From NCBI GenBank assembly GCA_025462645.1, contig JAOAPB010000069.1, positions 124,001 through 188,000 on the forward strand: 64,000 nucleotides of DNA. Reading direction: 5' to 3'. Made by a program: the position numbers and the translations under genes. Under the pieces are notes generated by a model. The model did no database searches. It was not told the DNA's origin and saw only the letters and a program-made list of their open reading frames with translations. This stretch comes from Edaphobacter sp. Its GTDB lineage: Bacteria > Acidobacteriota > Terriglobia > Terriglobales > Acidobacteriaceae. Positions 11,623-18,728 of this stretch are shown here, one piece after another; the stretch's first letter is position 1; each line of letters opens with the position of its first letter.

Positions 11623-14600
11623 TTAGAAGAGCACCTTCAAACCAAACTGAGCGATGCGCGGATCGAACGTATTGGTGATCGTTCCACCAGTAAGTCCATT
11701 GGCCGATGTTCCGATGCCGCCGCCGGGCGTAGTGAAGTTGGTATGGTTGAAGGCGTTGTAGAGCTCCCCGCGAAACTCTACCTTCAGCGTCTCCACTGGA
11801 GTATCGAACCGTTTGTTGAAGGCGATGTTGAGGTTGTTGTAGATGGGGCTGCGGCCTGGATCGCGCGACATATTGCCGAACGGGCTGGCGAGAACTCCAT
11901 TGACAAGGCTGGGTGGCAGAGAGACCGCAGCCAGGTTGATGTACTGCAACGAGGTTCCCGTCGACTTCGACTTGTCTATCGAATTCAGCGCGACACCAGG
12001 CACACGGTTAGGCCGATAGAGATTGGAGCCGCGATAGCTCGCCGCAATGCCCGAGACCTGGTTTTGCGTGGAAGGGCTGTAGTTGATCTGGTATGGGAAA
12101 CCCGACTGCGCCTGGTTGACGGCAGAGACCTGCCACTGGCCCAGAACCTGGTTGAGGATGCCGCCTGTATTCATGAAGCGGCGGTTCCGGCCGAAGGGCA
12201 ACTCGTAGACCAGCGATGTTGTGTTGATCAATGGCTGGTTGTACTCCGACTGGCCATAGTCTGCGGCGGGATTGCGATAGTCCTGCATCGAGGGCGTATT
12301 CGCTTCGAGCGAGGCTCCCGCGTTATCCAGCGCGTGCGACCACGTAAACGAATTCAGCAGCGTGAGCCCGGCCACCATGCGCTGCTCGTAGCGCACCTGC
12401 AATGCGTCATAGTGCGAATAGGCCTCGTGGAGGGCAATCGTGATATCGCCATAGGTGGGGATGGGGCGAGTGAACTTTCCAGCCGTAATCACATTCGGAT
12501 TAGCCTGGTTGTAGTTGGCGAACTGCAGCAGCTTCAAACCGTGGTTGCCGACATAAGCGATGTCCAGCAGCGTGTTCTTCATCAACGTGCGCTGCACGTC
12601 CAGATAGTAGTTATGGACGTAGCTGTCGCGGTAGCGGTTCGAGTCGATATAGCTGATGTTGTCCGTAATCGGATTGAAGGTCAGTGTGCTCGACGGGAAG
12701 CCCTGATCGATCGGAGTATAGGTACCCGCACCTCCAGCACGCGTTGGAGCCTGCGTCACCGTGACGAACAGCGCCTCCGGCGGATTGATCGCGAGGATGT
12801 TGCCCGAGCCAGCGCGATCGTAGTGCGAGAAGCTGATACCGTAACCGCCGCGAATCGCCGTCTTGTCGTCGACGGTATAAGCAAAACCAAACCGTGGCGC
12901 GAAGTCGTTGCGGTCCGGATTGTAGCCATACTTGTTGCCACTCATTGAGACGGGCACAATTGCCGACAGCGGGTTGGGCCCCATCGCGACGGTTGGGTCA
13001 AAGTTCGACTGCAGGTTCTTCTGCTCGTAGTACGGCGTCGAGTACTCGTAGCGCAAACCTATATTGAGTGTCAGCCTCGGCGACACCTTCCAATCATCCT
13101 GCACGTACGCAAAGTGCGACTGGTTCCGCAGGTGAGCAACAAAGTACGACGAGAGGGAGTACGCGCTCGACGCTCCCCACAGGAAGTCCGCAAAGTAGTT
13201 GTCTGTCGTAGCTGTCTCCGAGTTGACCACTTTGCCACCAGCATATTGCCGGCTATAAGCGCCACCGAAGGTGAATCCCCCATACAGCGGATTCGTATCC
13301 TGCACCGCCATCCAGGTGTGCTGATACTCGTAGCCCGTCTTCAACGAGTGGTTGTGAATCACCCACGAGTAGTTGATCTTGGGATTGAGCAGTGCCGGAT
13401 TCTGGAACTGTGGATTCGTCGTCTGGCGGCCAAGGGCAGCGATGCCCGTGATACCGATGCCCGGGATACCTCCCGCAACGATAGGATCGGTAGGCAGCCC
13501 AGGAAAGTTGATGCCTGCATTCGTCCCAATCGAGGTCGAGAACTTTCCGGCCTTCGTCCGAGACAGGCCGAAGCGCGCATCCAGCAGTTGGTTCGAGCTG
13601 ATCACACGCGTATAGCCAACCGCAACCTGCTGATCGAGAATCCGCTGCTTGCCGTTCGAATTGCCGTCCAGGGGGAGCCCGAAGATCGGAAAGTCCGTCG
13701 CATTCTGCTTCAGGTCAGACACGCGCAGGAAGAACGAATTGCGCGAATTCATGGTGTAGTCGAGCCGAAGGTCTCCCTTATCCGAAAAATTCTGCGAGCG
13801 CTGCAGCGTTGTGAAGTTGCTCGTGGTCGCTCCGGTGTTCGGCAGCTGACTGATCAGGCCTGCAATCGTCTTCGCCGCCGGAGAGATATCGGACGCATTC
13901 AGAATCGACGTACCGGCGGTGTATGGAGTTCCGGTGTAAGGATCGTAGACCGTCTTGCTGAACTTTCCCAGAAGCTGATTCGGCGTCGGCAGCGTAGCGG
14001 TAGACACCTGCTTACGAATCTGCCGGAAGCCCTCGTAGTCAAGGAAGAAGAACAGGCGATCGTGAAGGATCGGGCCGCCGATATTGCCGCCAAACTGGTT
14101 GCGATTGAACTGAGGCTTCTTGGTTCCCGCGGGGCTGAAGAAGCCCCTGGCATTCAGGTCTGTGTTGCGGAGAAACTCGTACACGCGTCCGTGGAACTGA
14201 TTCGTTCCCTGTGCGAACGCCACGTTGATCACGGCGCCCGACGCACGTCCATACTCAGCCGATTCGTTGTTCGTCACCACTTGAAACTGAGCAATGGAGT
14301 CCGGCGCAGGCTGAATGATCTGGTTCGAAAATCCCTGATTCGACTCGCCGTACGCATTATTGTCCATACCGTCGAGCAGGAAGTTGTTGAAGATCGAGCG
14401 TTGTCCGTTCACGTTGAACGAGCCCTCACGCAGCAAACCTGTGTTCGACGCGGTGGACATCGAGCCTGTCGTCTGACGAACACCCGTCGTCAGCCCGATC
14501 AGGTCGGAGTAGTTACGGCTCACCAGCGGCAGCGCCGCCGTCTGGTACTGCGTTATGATCTGTCCGCGCTGGCTCGTATCCGTCTCCACCTGCAACGACA

Positions 14601-14970
14601 CACCCGAGACCTCGACGGTCGTATTCGTGTCTCCAACCTTCAGCGTCAGATCGATGCGCTGACGGCTTGAGACCGATACCGTGATGTCCGTTGCATTCGC
14701 CGGAGAGAAGCCCTCATGCGTGACCTTAACGTTGTACTGACCCACACGCAGCGCTGGCACCTCATAGTCGCCGCTGTCATTGGTCGTACGCGTGCTTACG
14801 ACACCCGTGCTGATGTTCGTTACCGCTACCGTAGCGCCGGAGACAACCGCTCCTGTTCCATCATGAATCGTTCCTACGATGCTGCCGTTTTCAAACTGAG
14901 CAAGCAGGACTGCCGGGAACAGAAACAGGCACAGCATAACCGCAAGGAGGGCTCCAGAAAATTTATGCAT
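11623..14970 (-). CDS. TonB-dependent receptor, Oar-like, with N-terminal carboxypeptidase-regulatory-like domain
   Basis: GSIVGTIHDGTGAVVSGATVAVTNISTGV..., plug LPLVSRNYSDL.., FLLDGMDNN, barrel ending in ARIAQFGLKVLF. Start placed at MHKFSGALL. Confidence 0.93.
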   Translation of the reverse strand: MHKFSGALLAVMLCLFLFPAVLLAQFENGSIVGTIHDGTGAVVSGATVAVTNISTGVVSTRTTNDSGDYEVPALRVGQYNVKVTHEGFSPANATDITVSVSSRQRIDLTLKVGDTNTTVEVSGVSLQVETDTSQRGQIITQYQTAALPLVSRNYSDLIGLTTGVRQTTGSMSTASNTGLLREGSFNVNGQRSIFNNFLLDGMDNNAYGESNQGFSNQIIQPAPDSIAQFQVVTNNESAEYGRASGAVINVAFAQGTNQFHGRVYEFLRNTDLNARGFFSPAGTKKPQFNRNQFGGNIGGPILHDRLFFFLDYEGFRQIRKQVSTATLPTPNQLLGKFSKTVYDPYTGTPYTAGTSILNASDISPAAKTIAGLISQLPNTGATTSNFTTLQRSQNFSDKGDLRLDYTMNSRNSFFLRVSDLKQNATDFPIFGLPLDGNSNGKQRILDQQVAVGYTRVISSNQLLDARFGLSRTKAGKFSTSIGTNAGINFPGLPTDPIVAGGIPGIGITGIAALGRQTTNPQFQNPALLNPKINYSWVIHNHSLKTGYEYQHTWMAVQDTNPLYGGFTFGGAYSRQYAGGKVVNSETATTDNYFADFLWGASSAYSLSSYFVAHLRNQSHFAYVQDDWKVSPRLTLNIGLRYEYSTPYYEQKNLQSNFDPTVAMGPNPLSAIVPVSMSGNKYGYNPDRNDFAPRFGFAYTVDDKTAIRGGYGISFSHYDRAGSGNILAINPPEALFVTVTQAPTRAGGAGTYTPIDQGFPSSTLTFNPITDNISYIDSNRYRDSYVHNYYLDVQRTLMKNTLLDIAYVGNHGLKLLQFANYNQANPNVITAGKFTRPIPTYGDITIALHEAYSHYDALQVRYEQRMVAGLTLLNSFTWSHALDNAGASLEANTPSMQDYRNPAADYGQSEYNQPLINTTSLVYELPFGRNRRFMNTGGILNQVLGQWQVSAVNQAQSGFPYQINYSPSTQNQVSGIAASYRGSNLYRPNRVPGVALNSIDKSKSTGTSLQYINLAAVSLPPSLVNGVLASPFGNMSRDPGRSPIYNNLNIAFNKRFDTPVETLKVEFRGELYNAFNHTNFTTPGGGIGTSANGLTGGTITNTFDPRIAQFGLKVLF

Positions 14971-15070: not shown

Positions 15071-16252
15071 TCAAGGTTGAGAAGCTGTCTGGCCGGAGGC
15101 CTTCTGGCGCAGACTCTCCGGAACGAATTCACTGCTGAGCGTACGGCTACCACCGGTCAGATAATACGTCGGGATGCCGGGGTGCTGTTCCTCCACCAGA
15201 ATCAACGTACGAAAATCAAAGCTCTGCACCTCGGCGCGCGACTCCATGTGGTTGCGAACAATCGCCCCGCACAGAGTATCGACAAACACCTGCGGCGCCA
15301 CGGAGTGCTTCTTAGAAAGCTCGGCAGAAGCCTTCGTAGCCTGTCCTCCCGAAACCGCCGGAGGCAGCCGATCCGGAAGAATCTTCGTCTCCAGATTGAA
15401 CCGCACCCGATCCGCGTTGGCAGCCCGCTCTTTCGCCTGGGGCTGTCCCTTGCCCACGCCCTTGCGATAGTAGACCGCATAGAACTTTGCAAAGCGGAAG
15501 AGCGGCTCGGCATAAGTCGGAACATAGGGGCTAATCAGCTTCTCCTGCTTCGCAAAGGCTACTGCCACCGGCGAAAGCGCAAGGTCGTTCTTCTGATCCG
15601 GCCCAAAGTGCACCTTGTCGCAGATAAACGTCTTCTGCGCGTCGACGCTCGAGATGTCCTGAACGTAAACGCGGTTCTCCATCGTGTACGCGGACCCATC
15701 CGCCTTGCGGCACGACTCCGGATTTAGAAACTGATCGTGCCAGATCAGCGAGACCCCATCGGTAGTCACACCCGTATCCGTCTCGAGCGTTGTGCTCAAC
15801 TGGTCCAGTCCCGACTCAAACGAAGGCAGCGTGTTCTCCGGACGCAACCCTCGCCCGCCCCTGTGTGCCGACACATCGAAGCGAGCCAGCCTCTCCCGCT
15901 GCGCCGCCGTCGTAGCCGCCGCCCGCTCTTCCTGCAGCACCTGCTGCAGAATATCCGGCCAGTCAGTAATGATCCCATCGACTCCAAGCTTGATCTGCGC
16001 CCGGATCTTCTCCGCATCATTCGTCGTCCACGGAACGACCCGGAAGCCAGCCGCCTGAAGCGCATCGACCGGCACCTCATGATTCAGGACCGTGCCATCC
16101 ACCGGTGACAGCACCGGCCGCACCCCCACGCCATGCGTCTTCGCATGGTCCCATGCCTGCTGCATCAATCCGTTGTAAGGGTTGCTCTCCTGACCGTGAA
16201 GCATGGCTGCGGAAGCAAGGGCGAGGGAGACGATCCACGAAGCTCTATTCAT
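15071..16252 (-). CDS. Secreted glycerophosphodiester phosphodiesterase (GDPD)-like protein with apparently permuted barrel order
   Basis: Start at MNRASWIVSLALASAAMLHG (signal peptide). N-terminal AAGFRVVPWTTNDAEKIRAQIKLGVDGIITDWPD precedes SAHRGGRGLRPENTLPSFESGL and ETDTGVTTDGVSLIWHD. Confidence 0.85.
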   Translation of the reverse strand: MNRASWIVSLALASAAMLHGQESNPYNGLMQQAWDHAKTHGVGVRPVLSPVDGTVLNHEVPVDALQAAGFRVVPWTTNDAEKIRAQIKLGVDGIITDWPDILQQVLQEERAAATTAAQRERLARFDVSAHRGGRGLRPENTLPSFESGLDQLSTTLETDTGVTTDGVSLIWHDQFLNPESCRKADGSAYTMENRVYVQDISSVDAQKTFICDKVHFGPDQKNDLALSPVAVAFAKQEKLISPYVPTYAEPLFRFAKFYAVYYRKGVGKGQPQAKERAANADRVRFNLETKILPDRLPPAVSGGQATKASAELSKKHSVAPQVFVDTLCGAIVRNHMESRAEVQSFDFRTLILVEEQHPGIPTYYLTGGSRTLSSEFVPESLRQKASGQTASQP

Positions 16253-16447: not shown

Positions 16448-17503
16448 CTAAAAATGGTGGGACAGACTCACAATCACCGTGTAGTCGGCAAAGAACGCGT
16501 CGCCATTCTTCGTATTGTTCTGTATCTCCGGCACGCTTGGCGGGCGATCGCGACGCAGCGCCCACGGCCCATTCACCGATAACGTCGTCCTACGCACATT
16601 AAACATCAACCCCGGGTCCAGCGACAGAATCGATCCCGGTCGCCGGAACCCGTCGCTGTCTCCCAGCAGATCCCGCACCGGCACGCCCTCGCCGCGAACC
16701 CCAAGGCTGAACGCCAGCCCACGCACCTTTGGCACGCCCTGTGTAACCCCGACGCGATACAGGTACTGGTCCGTCACCGACATCACGCTCTGCCCCGGCT
16801 GGCTCCGAAACGTCGCCACGCCATTCGTATTCCTCGGGTTGAATAGATACTGCGCCTGGTAGTACGCATCCGCCCGATGCCACATCGACTTATACCCCTG
16901 CGTCCCCAGCGAGAACCCCCATCCGCCATCGCCCGGCTGCATCGACTGGTCCGCCGTAGCCTTCACCATCTGGCCCTTGTACAGAGCCGTCCCCGTCGCA
17001 TCGTTGATCCCCGTCGGAATCTTCAGCGACGCGCTCACGGCGATATTCCCGCCGTTCTCCGTAGGTGGCCGGAAGATCCACGCCTGCCCTCCCACCGTCA
17101 TATCGCCCAACCCACTCACCTGAAACACACCCGTCGGCGGATACAGCTGATTGCGCGAGCCGTTATAGACCGGCACATCGGCAATAAAGCTCCAGCGCGG
17201 CGTAAACCTGTACTCCACCCCCACATCGAAGATGTTCTGGTGGTTCCGGATCGCATTCGCCCGCGGCAGCTCCGCGTCGCCTACAAAATACTTGTTCGAA
17301 TTGAACATCCGATAGCCGATGTCCACCGTCAGGTTATGAATCGACCAGCCCCCAAAGGAGCCTCCGTCATAGGTCTTCACCAGCTCGCTCATCGTGCGCT
17401 GATTCGTATGCGCCGCAACGCATCCCTGTGCTGACGCTCGCACGCCGGCAAGACCCACCGACGCAACCATAGCCGCCAAAATTATCTTCTGTATCTTTTT
17501 CAT
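16448..17503 (-). CDS. Outer-membrane beta-barrel protein of unknown function
   Basis: Signal peptide MKKIQKIILAAMVASVGLAGVRASAQ; alternating-strand sequence; terminal VIVSLSHHF. Confidence 0.65.
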   Translation of the reverse strand: MKKIQKIILAAMVASVGLAGVRASAQGCVAAHTNQRTMSELVKTYDGGSFGGWSIHNLTVDIGYRMFNSNKYFVGDAELPRANAIRNHQNIFDVGVEYRFTPRWSFIADVPVYNGSRNQLYPPTGVFQVSGLGDMTVGGQAWIFRPPTENGGNIAVSASLKIPTGINDATGTALYKGQMVKATADQSMQPGDGGWGFSLGTQGYKSMWHRADAYYQAQYLFNPRNTNGVATFRSQPGQSVMSVTDQYLYRVGVTQGVPKVRGLAFSLGVRGEGVPVRDLLGDSDGFRRPGSILSLDPGLMFNVRRTTLSVNGPWALRRDRPPSVPEIQNNTKNGDAFFADYTVIVSLSHHF

Positions 17504-17861
17504 GAGAATTCCTCGAAGCAACTGGCCCCGCAAAACACTGTCCCGGAAAACGCTTTAGTAGGAGCGCACCCACTCTAAGTGGAGCGTATCCTTGCTGTCT
17601 TCCACCTTTAGATGGAACTCCGCCCCAACCCACCAGTTTCGTTACCCCTGGCCGAAGTACACCTTCCCGCTACCTGGAGCCGTTCCCAGATCAAATTAAA
17701 GTCTCATCGGCAAAAAAATCGGCGTACACTTCCGCCGGGACCCCTCCATCGAAGTACCGGTTCTCACTGCTCGAGTACGCCCTCATGCGTCTCGCGGATT
17801 CGATCTCTGTCGCCGGTAGTCGCTGCACCACAAGTCTCTCCAGCCCAGGAGGCTGACATCC

Positions 17862-18728
17862 ATGAAAACTTCACCCACGCTCTCTCTCGGACTGTGTCTT
17901 CTCTTCGGCAGTCTCAGCACCCTCAACGCACAGGAAGCCGCACCCGCCATGCCGGGTCCGCCCAAGGTCCTCGTCGTCACCCGCGAGTTCCTCAAGCCCG
18001 GCAGATCCGGAGCCGCGCATCAAAAGACCGAAAGCGCCTTCGTCAACGCAATGACAGCCGCCAAGTGGCCCGTCCACTACTTCGCCATGAACTCCCTCTC
18101 CGGAGCCCCGCGCACCCTCTTCTTCATCGGCTACGAGTCCTTCGCCGCATGGGAGAAGGACAACCTCGCCACCGCCGGCAACCCCACTCTGGCCGCCGCT
18201 ATGGACCACGCCTCCGCCGCCGACGGCGATCTGCTCAGCAGCTACGACTCCAGCACCTTCATCCTCCGCGAAGACCTTAGTCTGCGCCAGGCCGTCGACA
18301 TCGCCCACATGCGCTACTTCGAGATCTCCCGTTTCGTCGTACGCCCCGGCCACATGAAGGAGTTCGAGGAGCTTGGCAAGCTCTACGTCGGCGGCTACGA
18401 GAAGACCATCCCCGACGCCCACTGGGCCACCTTCGAGAGCCTCTACGGCACAGACAACGGTGGAGTCTTCGTCGTCATCAACCCCATCAAGTCCATGGCC
18501 GAGATCGACCAGTCCCTTCCTCAGTCAAAGCAGTTCATGGATGCGATGGGCGAAGACGGCATGAAGAAGCTGGAGACGCTCTCAGCCTCCTGCATCGAGT
18601 CCGTCCAAACTAATCTCTTCGCCTTCACCCCCGACATGAGCTACCCGGCCGAAGAGTGGATCAAAGCCGACCCCACCTTCTGGAAGCCCAAGCCACGCAT
18701 TCAAACAAAGACACCCGCGACCCCCTAG
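17862..18728 (+). CDS. Secreted protein, NIPSNAP/antibiotic-monooxygenase-like ferredoxin-fold repeats (tentative)
   Basis: Signal peptide MKTSPTLSLGLCLLFGSLSTLNAQ; TREFLKPGRSGAAHQKTESAFV / RFVVRPGHMKEFEELGKLY repeated pattern. Confidence 0.5.
   Translation: MKTSPTLSLGLCLLFGSLSTLNAQEAAPAMPGPPKVLVVTREFLKPGRSGAAHQKTESAFVNAMTAAKWPVHYFAMNSLSGAPRTLFFIGYESFAAWEKDNLATAGNPTLAAAMDHASAADGDLLSSYDSSTFILREDLSLRQAVDIAHMRYFEISRFVVRPGHMKEFEELGKLYVGGYEKTIPDAHWATFESLYGTDNGGVFVVINPIKSMAEIDQSLPQSKQFMDAMGEDGMKKLETLSASCIESVQTNLFAFTPDMSYPAEEWIKADPTFWKPKPRIQTKTPATP

Follow-up and report, generated by a model that had tools for sequence, protein, structure and literature searches.

The window, by which we mean the whole 64,000-nucleotide stretch of Edaphobacter sp. 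DNA that was analysed, carries on its minus strand, at positions 15071 to 16252, a gene for a 393-amino-acid protein (plus stop codon) of the glycerophosphodiester phosphodiesterase (GDPD) family, a widespread and much studied group of enzymes. The gene was delimited from the translated open reading frame and its PF03009 matches. The protein starts with a predicted signal peptide (residues 1 to about 21; 16190 to 16252), recognised by its hydrophobic N terminus and low pLDDT, followed by a segment comprising a helix and barrel strands 6, 7, and 8 that is C-terminal in canonical GDPDs (residues 23 to 106; 15935 to 16186), a new linker, helical in the model, between the old C terminus and the old N terminus (residues 107 to 123; 15884 to 15934), a core with barrel strands 1 to 5, delimited from conservation and the AlphaFold2 model (residues 124 to 368; 15149 to 15883), and a short C-terminal tail without the GDPD tail motif (residues 369 to 393; 15074 to 15148). 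A second gene of identical permuted order is present in the same genome (L007, 1462 to 2673), its product being 63% identical over residues 12 to 384. On the same strand, about 100 bp past the GDPD stop codon, lies a gene for an Oar-like TonB-dependent outer-membrane protein (11623 to 14970). Two neighbouring genes, neither of whose products matched Pfam at an E value of 0.001, encode an exported protein with a resemblance to outer-membrane barrels (16448 to 17509, minus strand) and a 288-residue protein with a signal-peptide-like start (17862 to 18725, plus strand).

The initial annotation had claimed, from the order of the motifs, that the C-terminal barrel segment of a GDPD has been relocated to the N terminus, and we found the same order in the translation of all 393 residues, in the halves of PF03009, and in the blocks aligned with a solved structure. 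The motif block VVPWTTN..GVDGIITDWPD (residues 73 to 100) comes first; only then follow AHRGGRGLRPENT (129 to 141), ETD (157 to 159), WHD (171 to 173), FNLETK (285 to 290), QSFD (343 to 346), and PTYYLT (361 to 366). In the genome scan, the two halves of PF03009 were swapped, with profile positions 165 to 243 ahead of positions 1 to 51 (E values of 1.8e-9 and 6.7e-9), so that the protein departs from the canonical N-to-C segment order of the family. Against the whole protein, PF03009 gave an E value of 5e-22 and, over two stretches, 79.6 bits, against a curated family cut-off of 23.6 bits; the relocated segment, residues 17 to 100, corresponded to profile positions 165 to 243. The best PDB sequence match, 3ch0, aligned in three blocks which covered most of the canonical chain in rotated order (query residues 123 to 194, 321 to 375, and 49 to 102 with residues 7 to 78, 152 to 206, and 217 to 269, respectively). 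Tail, head, and middle profiles built in this analysis and run on the permuted proteins matched once each per protein, revealing neither a hidden C-terminal tail nor a lost N-terminal head. A second tail near the C terminus, sought with these profiles, was not found, in agreement with the earlier observation that the protein ends without a PWTVN/GVDGIITD-type segment, and no HRG motif occurred in the open frame that extends upstream of the start codon. By the 3ch0 blocks and the segment profiles alike, every GDPD segment is present once and the cyclic order is rotated, which is the arrangement of a circular permutant.

We then modelled the protein with AlphaFold2, using as input an alignment of 32 homologues that contained permuted sequences only. 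The model was a single barrel (pLDDT of 91.3, pTM of 0.89) formed jointly and with confidence by residues 23 to 106 and the core. With strand numbers assigned after the family pattern, strands 6, 7, and 8 are predicted at residues 47 to 51, about 71 to 75 (VVPW), and 93 to 96 (IITD), and strands 1 to 5 at residues 126 to 130, 155 to 162, 284 to 289, 340 to 344, and 362 to 366; residues 168 to 170 form a hairpin with the HD motif. All eight strands, running along the chain in the order 6-7-8-1-2-3-4-5, lie in high-pLDDT blocks, and the predicted structure is the eight-stranded TIM barrel of the GDPD family. That the N-terminal segment completes the barrel had been anticipated, and the model agrees, but it was expected to supply strands 7 and 8, whereas in the model it carries three, strands 6, 7, and 8. 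Almost all of the best 50 PDB matches listed by Foldseek were GDPDs, headed by 3ch0 (E value of 1.3e-11, TMt of 0.59). These sequential alignments span part of each barrel, with a best TMt of 0.59, and no solved GDPD among the matches listed followed the query along its whole length, as is expected of sequential matches because of the permutation. Both the segment count and the model bear on another reading of the swapped order, namely, that two truncated GDPD copies have been fused and that the pieces either do nothing or form a full barrel only from separate chains, as a domain-swapped dimer. Since no segment is missing or duplicated and the single-chain model is confident across the whole barrel, we regard this as unlikely.

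The conservation alignment of 32 permuted sequences, which were 35 to 70% identical to the window protein, showed H130, R131, E139, N140, E157, D159, H172, E288, and K290 of the core to be invariant, positions which correspond, by established knowledge of the GDPD family, to its catalytic histidines and to the carboxylates that serve as metal ligands. The motifs HRG..PENT, E-x-D, HD, and E-x-K are all present in the window protein. Invariant together with these core residues were W75, G93, and D97, which lie in the displaced segment, as expected if the two parts cooperate, which argues further against a mere joining of two incomplete copies. After the signal peptide, the mature chain would begin at the helix ahead of strand 6 and run through strands 6, 7, and 8; the new helical linker would then connect the old termini, and strands 1 to 5 would end the chain. 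The barrel would close inside one chain and rebuild the normal GDPD site of two histidines and the E-x-D and E-x-K carboxylates, and with such a barrel and such a site the protein should cut glycerophosphodiesters into glycerol-3-phosphate and an alcohol. The conserved active site thus points to glycerophosphodiester phosphodiesterase activity, and, together with the probable signal peptide, it suggests a periplasmic or secreted location. In soil settings, secreted GlpQ enzymes of Pseudomonas free the phosphorus of glycerophosphocholine (PMC5438359), and by analogy phosphorus scavenging would be the likeliest role of the permuted GDPD.

The gene neighbourhood was considered in this light. An Oar-like receptor gene directly follows the GDPD gene not only in the window but also in several Edaphobacter and Terriglobus relatives (54 to 82% identity), while in other relatives the flanking genes encode glycosidases, RuvB, or GGDEF proteins. 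Because of these unrelated neighbours, a functional link between the GDPD and the Oar-like receptor is suggestive only, and a uniform function deduced from gene context was rejected. The arrangement would also fit a protein that has lost catalysis and whose permuted barrel now serves just to bind a ligand on behalf of the adjacent TonB-dependent receptor; with every catalytic and metal-ligand position invariant and with the neighbours differing between relatives, we consider such a loss very improbable.

To see how far the permuted order extends, we counted the genomes with full-length permuted homologues in three samples: there were 45 among 60 from the genus, 11 among 150 from the family Acidobacteriaceae, and 23 among 347 from the phylum, all 23 being Acidobacteriaceae; one further genome of the phylum was matched by a canonical protein only (L153). 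Among the named carriers are Edaphobacter, Terriglobus, Granulicella, Bryocella, and Acidipila. Beyond the phylum, a stand-alone permuted form is present in Corallococcus, and permuted GDPDs nested in a larger protein occur in Chitinimonas and Chitinibacter (Chitinibacteraceae), a Methylococcaceae MAG, a further relative from the class (L166), Planctomycetota, a Myxococcales MAG (Myxococcota), and a cyanobacterial MAG. No plasmid matched the permuted GDPD. The permuted GDPD of a MAG labelled Rhodanobacteraceae (L081) was placed among Acidobacteriaceae sequences, which is likely due to mis-binning or recent transfer. The search for homologues, which the initial annotation had recommended, thus found the order retained in the genus, in the family, and in other phyla. 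The possibility that the order is an artefact of annotation, of assembly, or of a frameshift in a single genome, for which no support was found, is refuted by this conservation and has a practically negligible probability: dozens of species from several phyla have the order in reading frames without a break, including the named isolates Edaphobacter aggregans, Terriglobus roseus, Granulicella rosea, Bryocella elongata, Corallococcus, and Chitinibacter tainanensis. The complementary segments, the confident single barrel, the invariant active site, and the order kept across phyla all argue for circular permutation, and we put at roughly 90% the probability that the gene encodes a secreted metal-dependent glycerophosphodiester phosphodiesterase with a naturally circularly permuted TIM barrel, the fold being that of the model and both activity and secretion being putative.

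In the nested forms, the host of the GDPD turned out to be a domain of the Phytase-like propeller family (PF13449). In L084, L085, L087, L092, and L096, Pfam matches to PF13449 were split, with the GDPD tail and then its head and middle between the halves; halves flanking the GDPD were present in the relatives L084 to L087, L092, and L096, and local profiles gave the order propeller-N, tail, core, propeller-C for all the complete nested proteins. An AlphaFold model of nested L085 was weak (pLDDT of 65.5, pTM of 0.52), with the strands again in permuted order. PF13449 matched neither the window protein (P0001) in the Pfam search nor anything in the window's genome in the genome scan, and the latter ruled out a split gene with the propeller encoded elsewhere in that genome. 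A contig of a MAG labelled Methanosarcinales (L097) carried a nested permuted GDPD with the first half of the propeller, the frame being cut in the middle region. The linker between the old C and N termini in L084 to L087 and L089 to L095, that is, in nested forms and Corallococcus, reads DANxDGxPGDxLxxDGxID, like an EF-hand or dockerin-type calcium loop; this motif is absent from the linker of the Acidobacteriaceae proteins. Among 194 cyanobacterial genomes sampled, 28, besides or around the nested MAG, gave a related match, mostly to the homologous propeller, which was either split or recognised as two separate halves. Most of the 14 cyanobacterial loci that were read (L178 to L191) encode Phytase-like propellers with a canonical-order GDPD inserted in the same loop region, immediately ahead of the RSPQNP motif. 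The start of a second, tandem GDPD was seen in L179, L186, L187, L188, and L190, while in L183 the propeller is uninterrupted and the GDPD follows it.

For the phylogeny, we first rotated the permuted sequences into the canonical order. The 25 permuted rows all fell into one clade apart from canonical GDPDs (100/100; 99 with the core alone and 87 with the tail alone), and canonical Myxococcota/Chloroflexota GDPDs were the nearest non-permuted group (90/72). With a common cut site and a single clade, the permuted sequences point to one ancient permutation event as most likely, although the AU test does not formally force it: two separate permutations, when enforced, cost about 18 log-likelihood units, with a borderline P value of 0.064 to 0.067. 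Neither the stand-alone nor the nested group was rejected as one clade (AU P values of 0.336 and 0.603). The core and the tail scored best against different canonical groups, a weak hint that the halves of the permuted GDPD might not share one parent.

Permutation classically arises when a gene is duplicated in tandem and the two outer halves are then lost. Canonical GDPDs in tandem do occur, and four from Actinomycetota (L105, L106, L108, and L126) consist of two complete copies; copies 1 and 2 fall into separate clades, and the duplication is therefore old. None of the tandems found was the direct ancestor of the permuted form, and direct descent from the actinobacterial ones, raised by early profile scores, was rejected, as the trees put the tandems outside. 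They show that raw material for a fusion of two shortened copies exists, and the tail's separate best canonical group is also in favour of it, but the actinobacterial tandems are not close kin of the permuted clade. The initial annotation had offered a truncated copy fused to a tail-less one as the alternative to permutation; this survives as a possible route, duplication followed by trimming, by which the permuted enzyme may have arisen, and not as a different protein. We also propose, tentatively and with the odds against it, that the permutation was tied to insertion of a GDPD into a loop of the Phytase-like beta-propeller and that the stand-alone enzymes found in Acidobacteriaceae and Corallococcus arose as domains released from this host later. 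Hints of such a release are that the Corallococcus stand-alone protein keeps the nested-form linker DANxDGxPGD, that the stand-alone chain has NPY at its start, which comes close to RSPQNPY of the propeller, and that canonical or tandem GDPDs sit at nearly the same loop of cyanobacterial propellers.

The permuted branch, with its canonical and tandem-canonical relatives and its stand-alone and nested forms, offers a rare set for studying how TIM barrels are re-cut and reused, and it adds candidate organic-phosphorus enzymes for soil Acidobacteriaceae. It also matters for annotation, in that profile searches split permuted GDPDs into two partial matches and their completeness as enzymes can be missed. 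A search of open-access papers for GDPDs described as circularly permuted returned nothing relevant, which does not imply absence elsewhere. With canonical GDPD/GlpQ enzymes (PF03009; 3ch0 from Cytophaga hutchinsonii), the window protein has in common the motifs, the active-site residues, and the predicted eight-stranded TIM barrel; it differs in having strands 6 to 8 before strand 1, its termini lying between strands 5 and 6 and not, as in the canonical proteins, around strand 1. The Myxococcota/Chloroflexota GDPDs (L127, L129, and L168 to L173) share with the permuted ones a long insert before strand 3 (..CD.NPD..FPDQ...TL..FV..YA....QR.NA..V.FN.ETK) but are canonical in order. The cyanobacterial proteins combining a Phytase-like propeller with GlpQ hold the GDPD where the nested permuted forms do, in the corresponding region of that propeller family, yet their GDPDs are canonical in order and belong to another branch, and the window protein has no propeller. 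A natural circular permutation in another TIM-barrel enzyme family is described for E. coli MalS of GH13_19 (PMC10223318); MalS and the permuted GDPD are both naturally permuted TIM-barrel enzymes, MalS being an alpha-amylase of an unrelated family.
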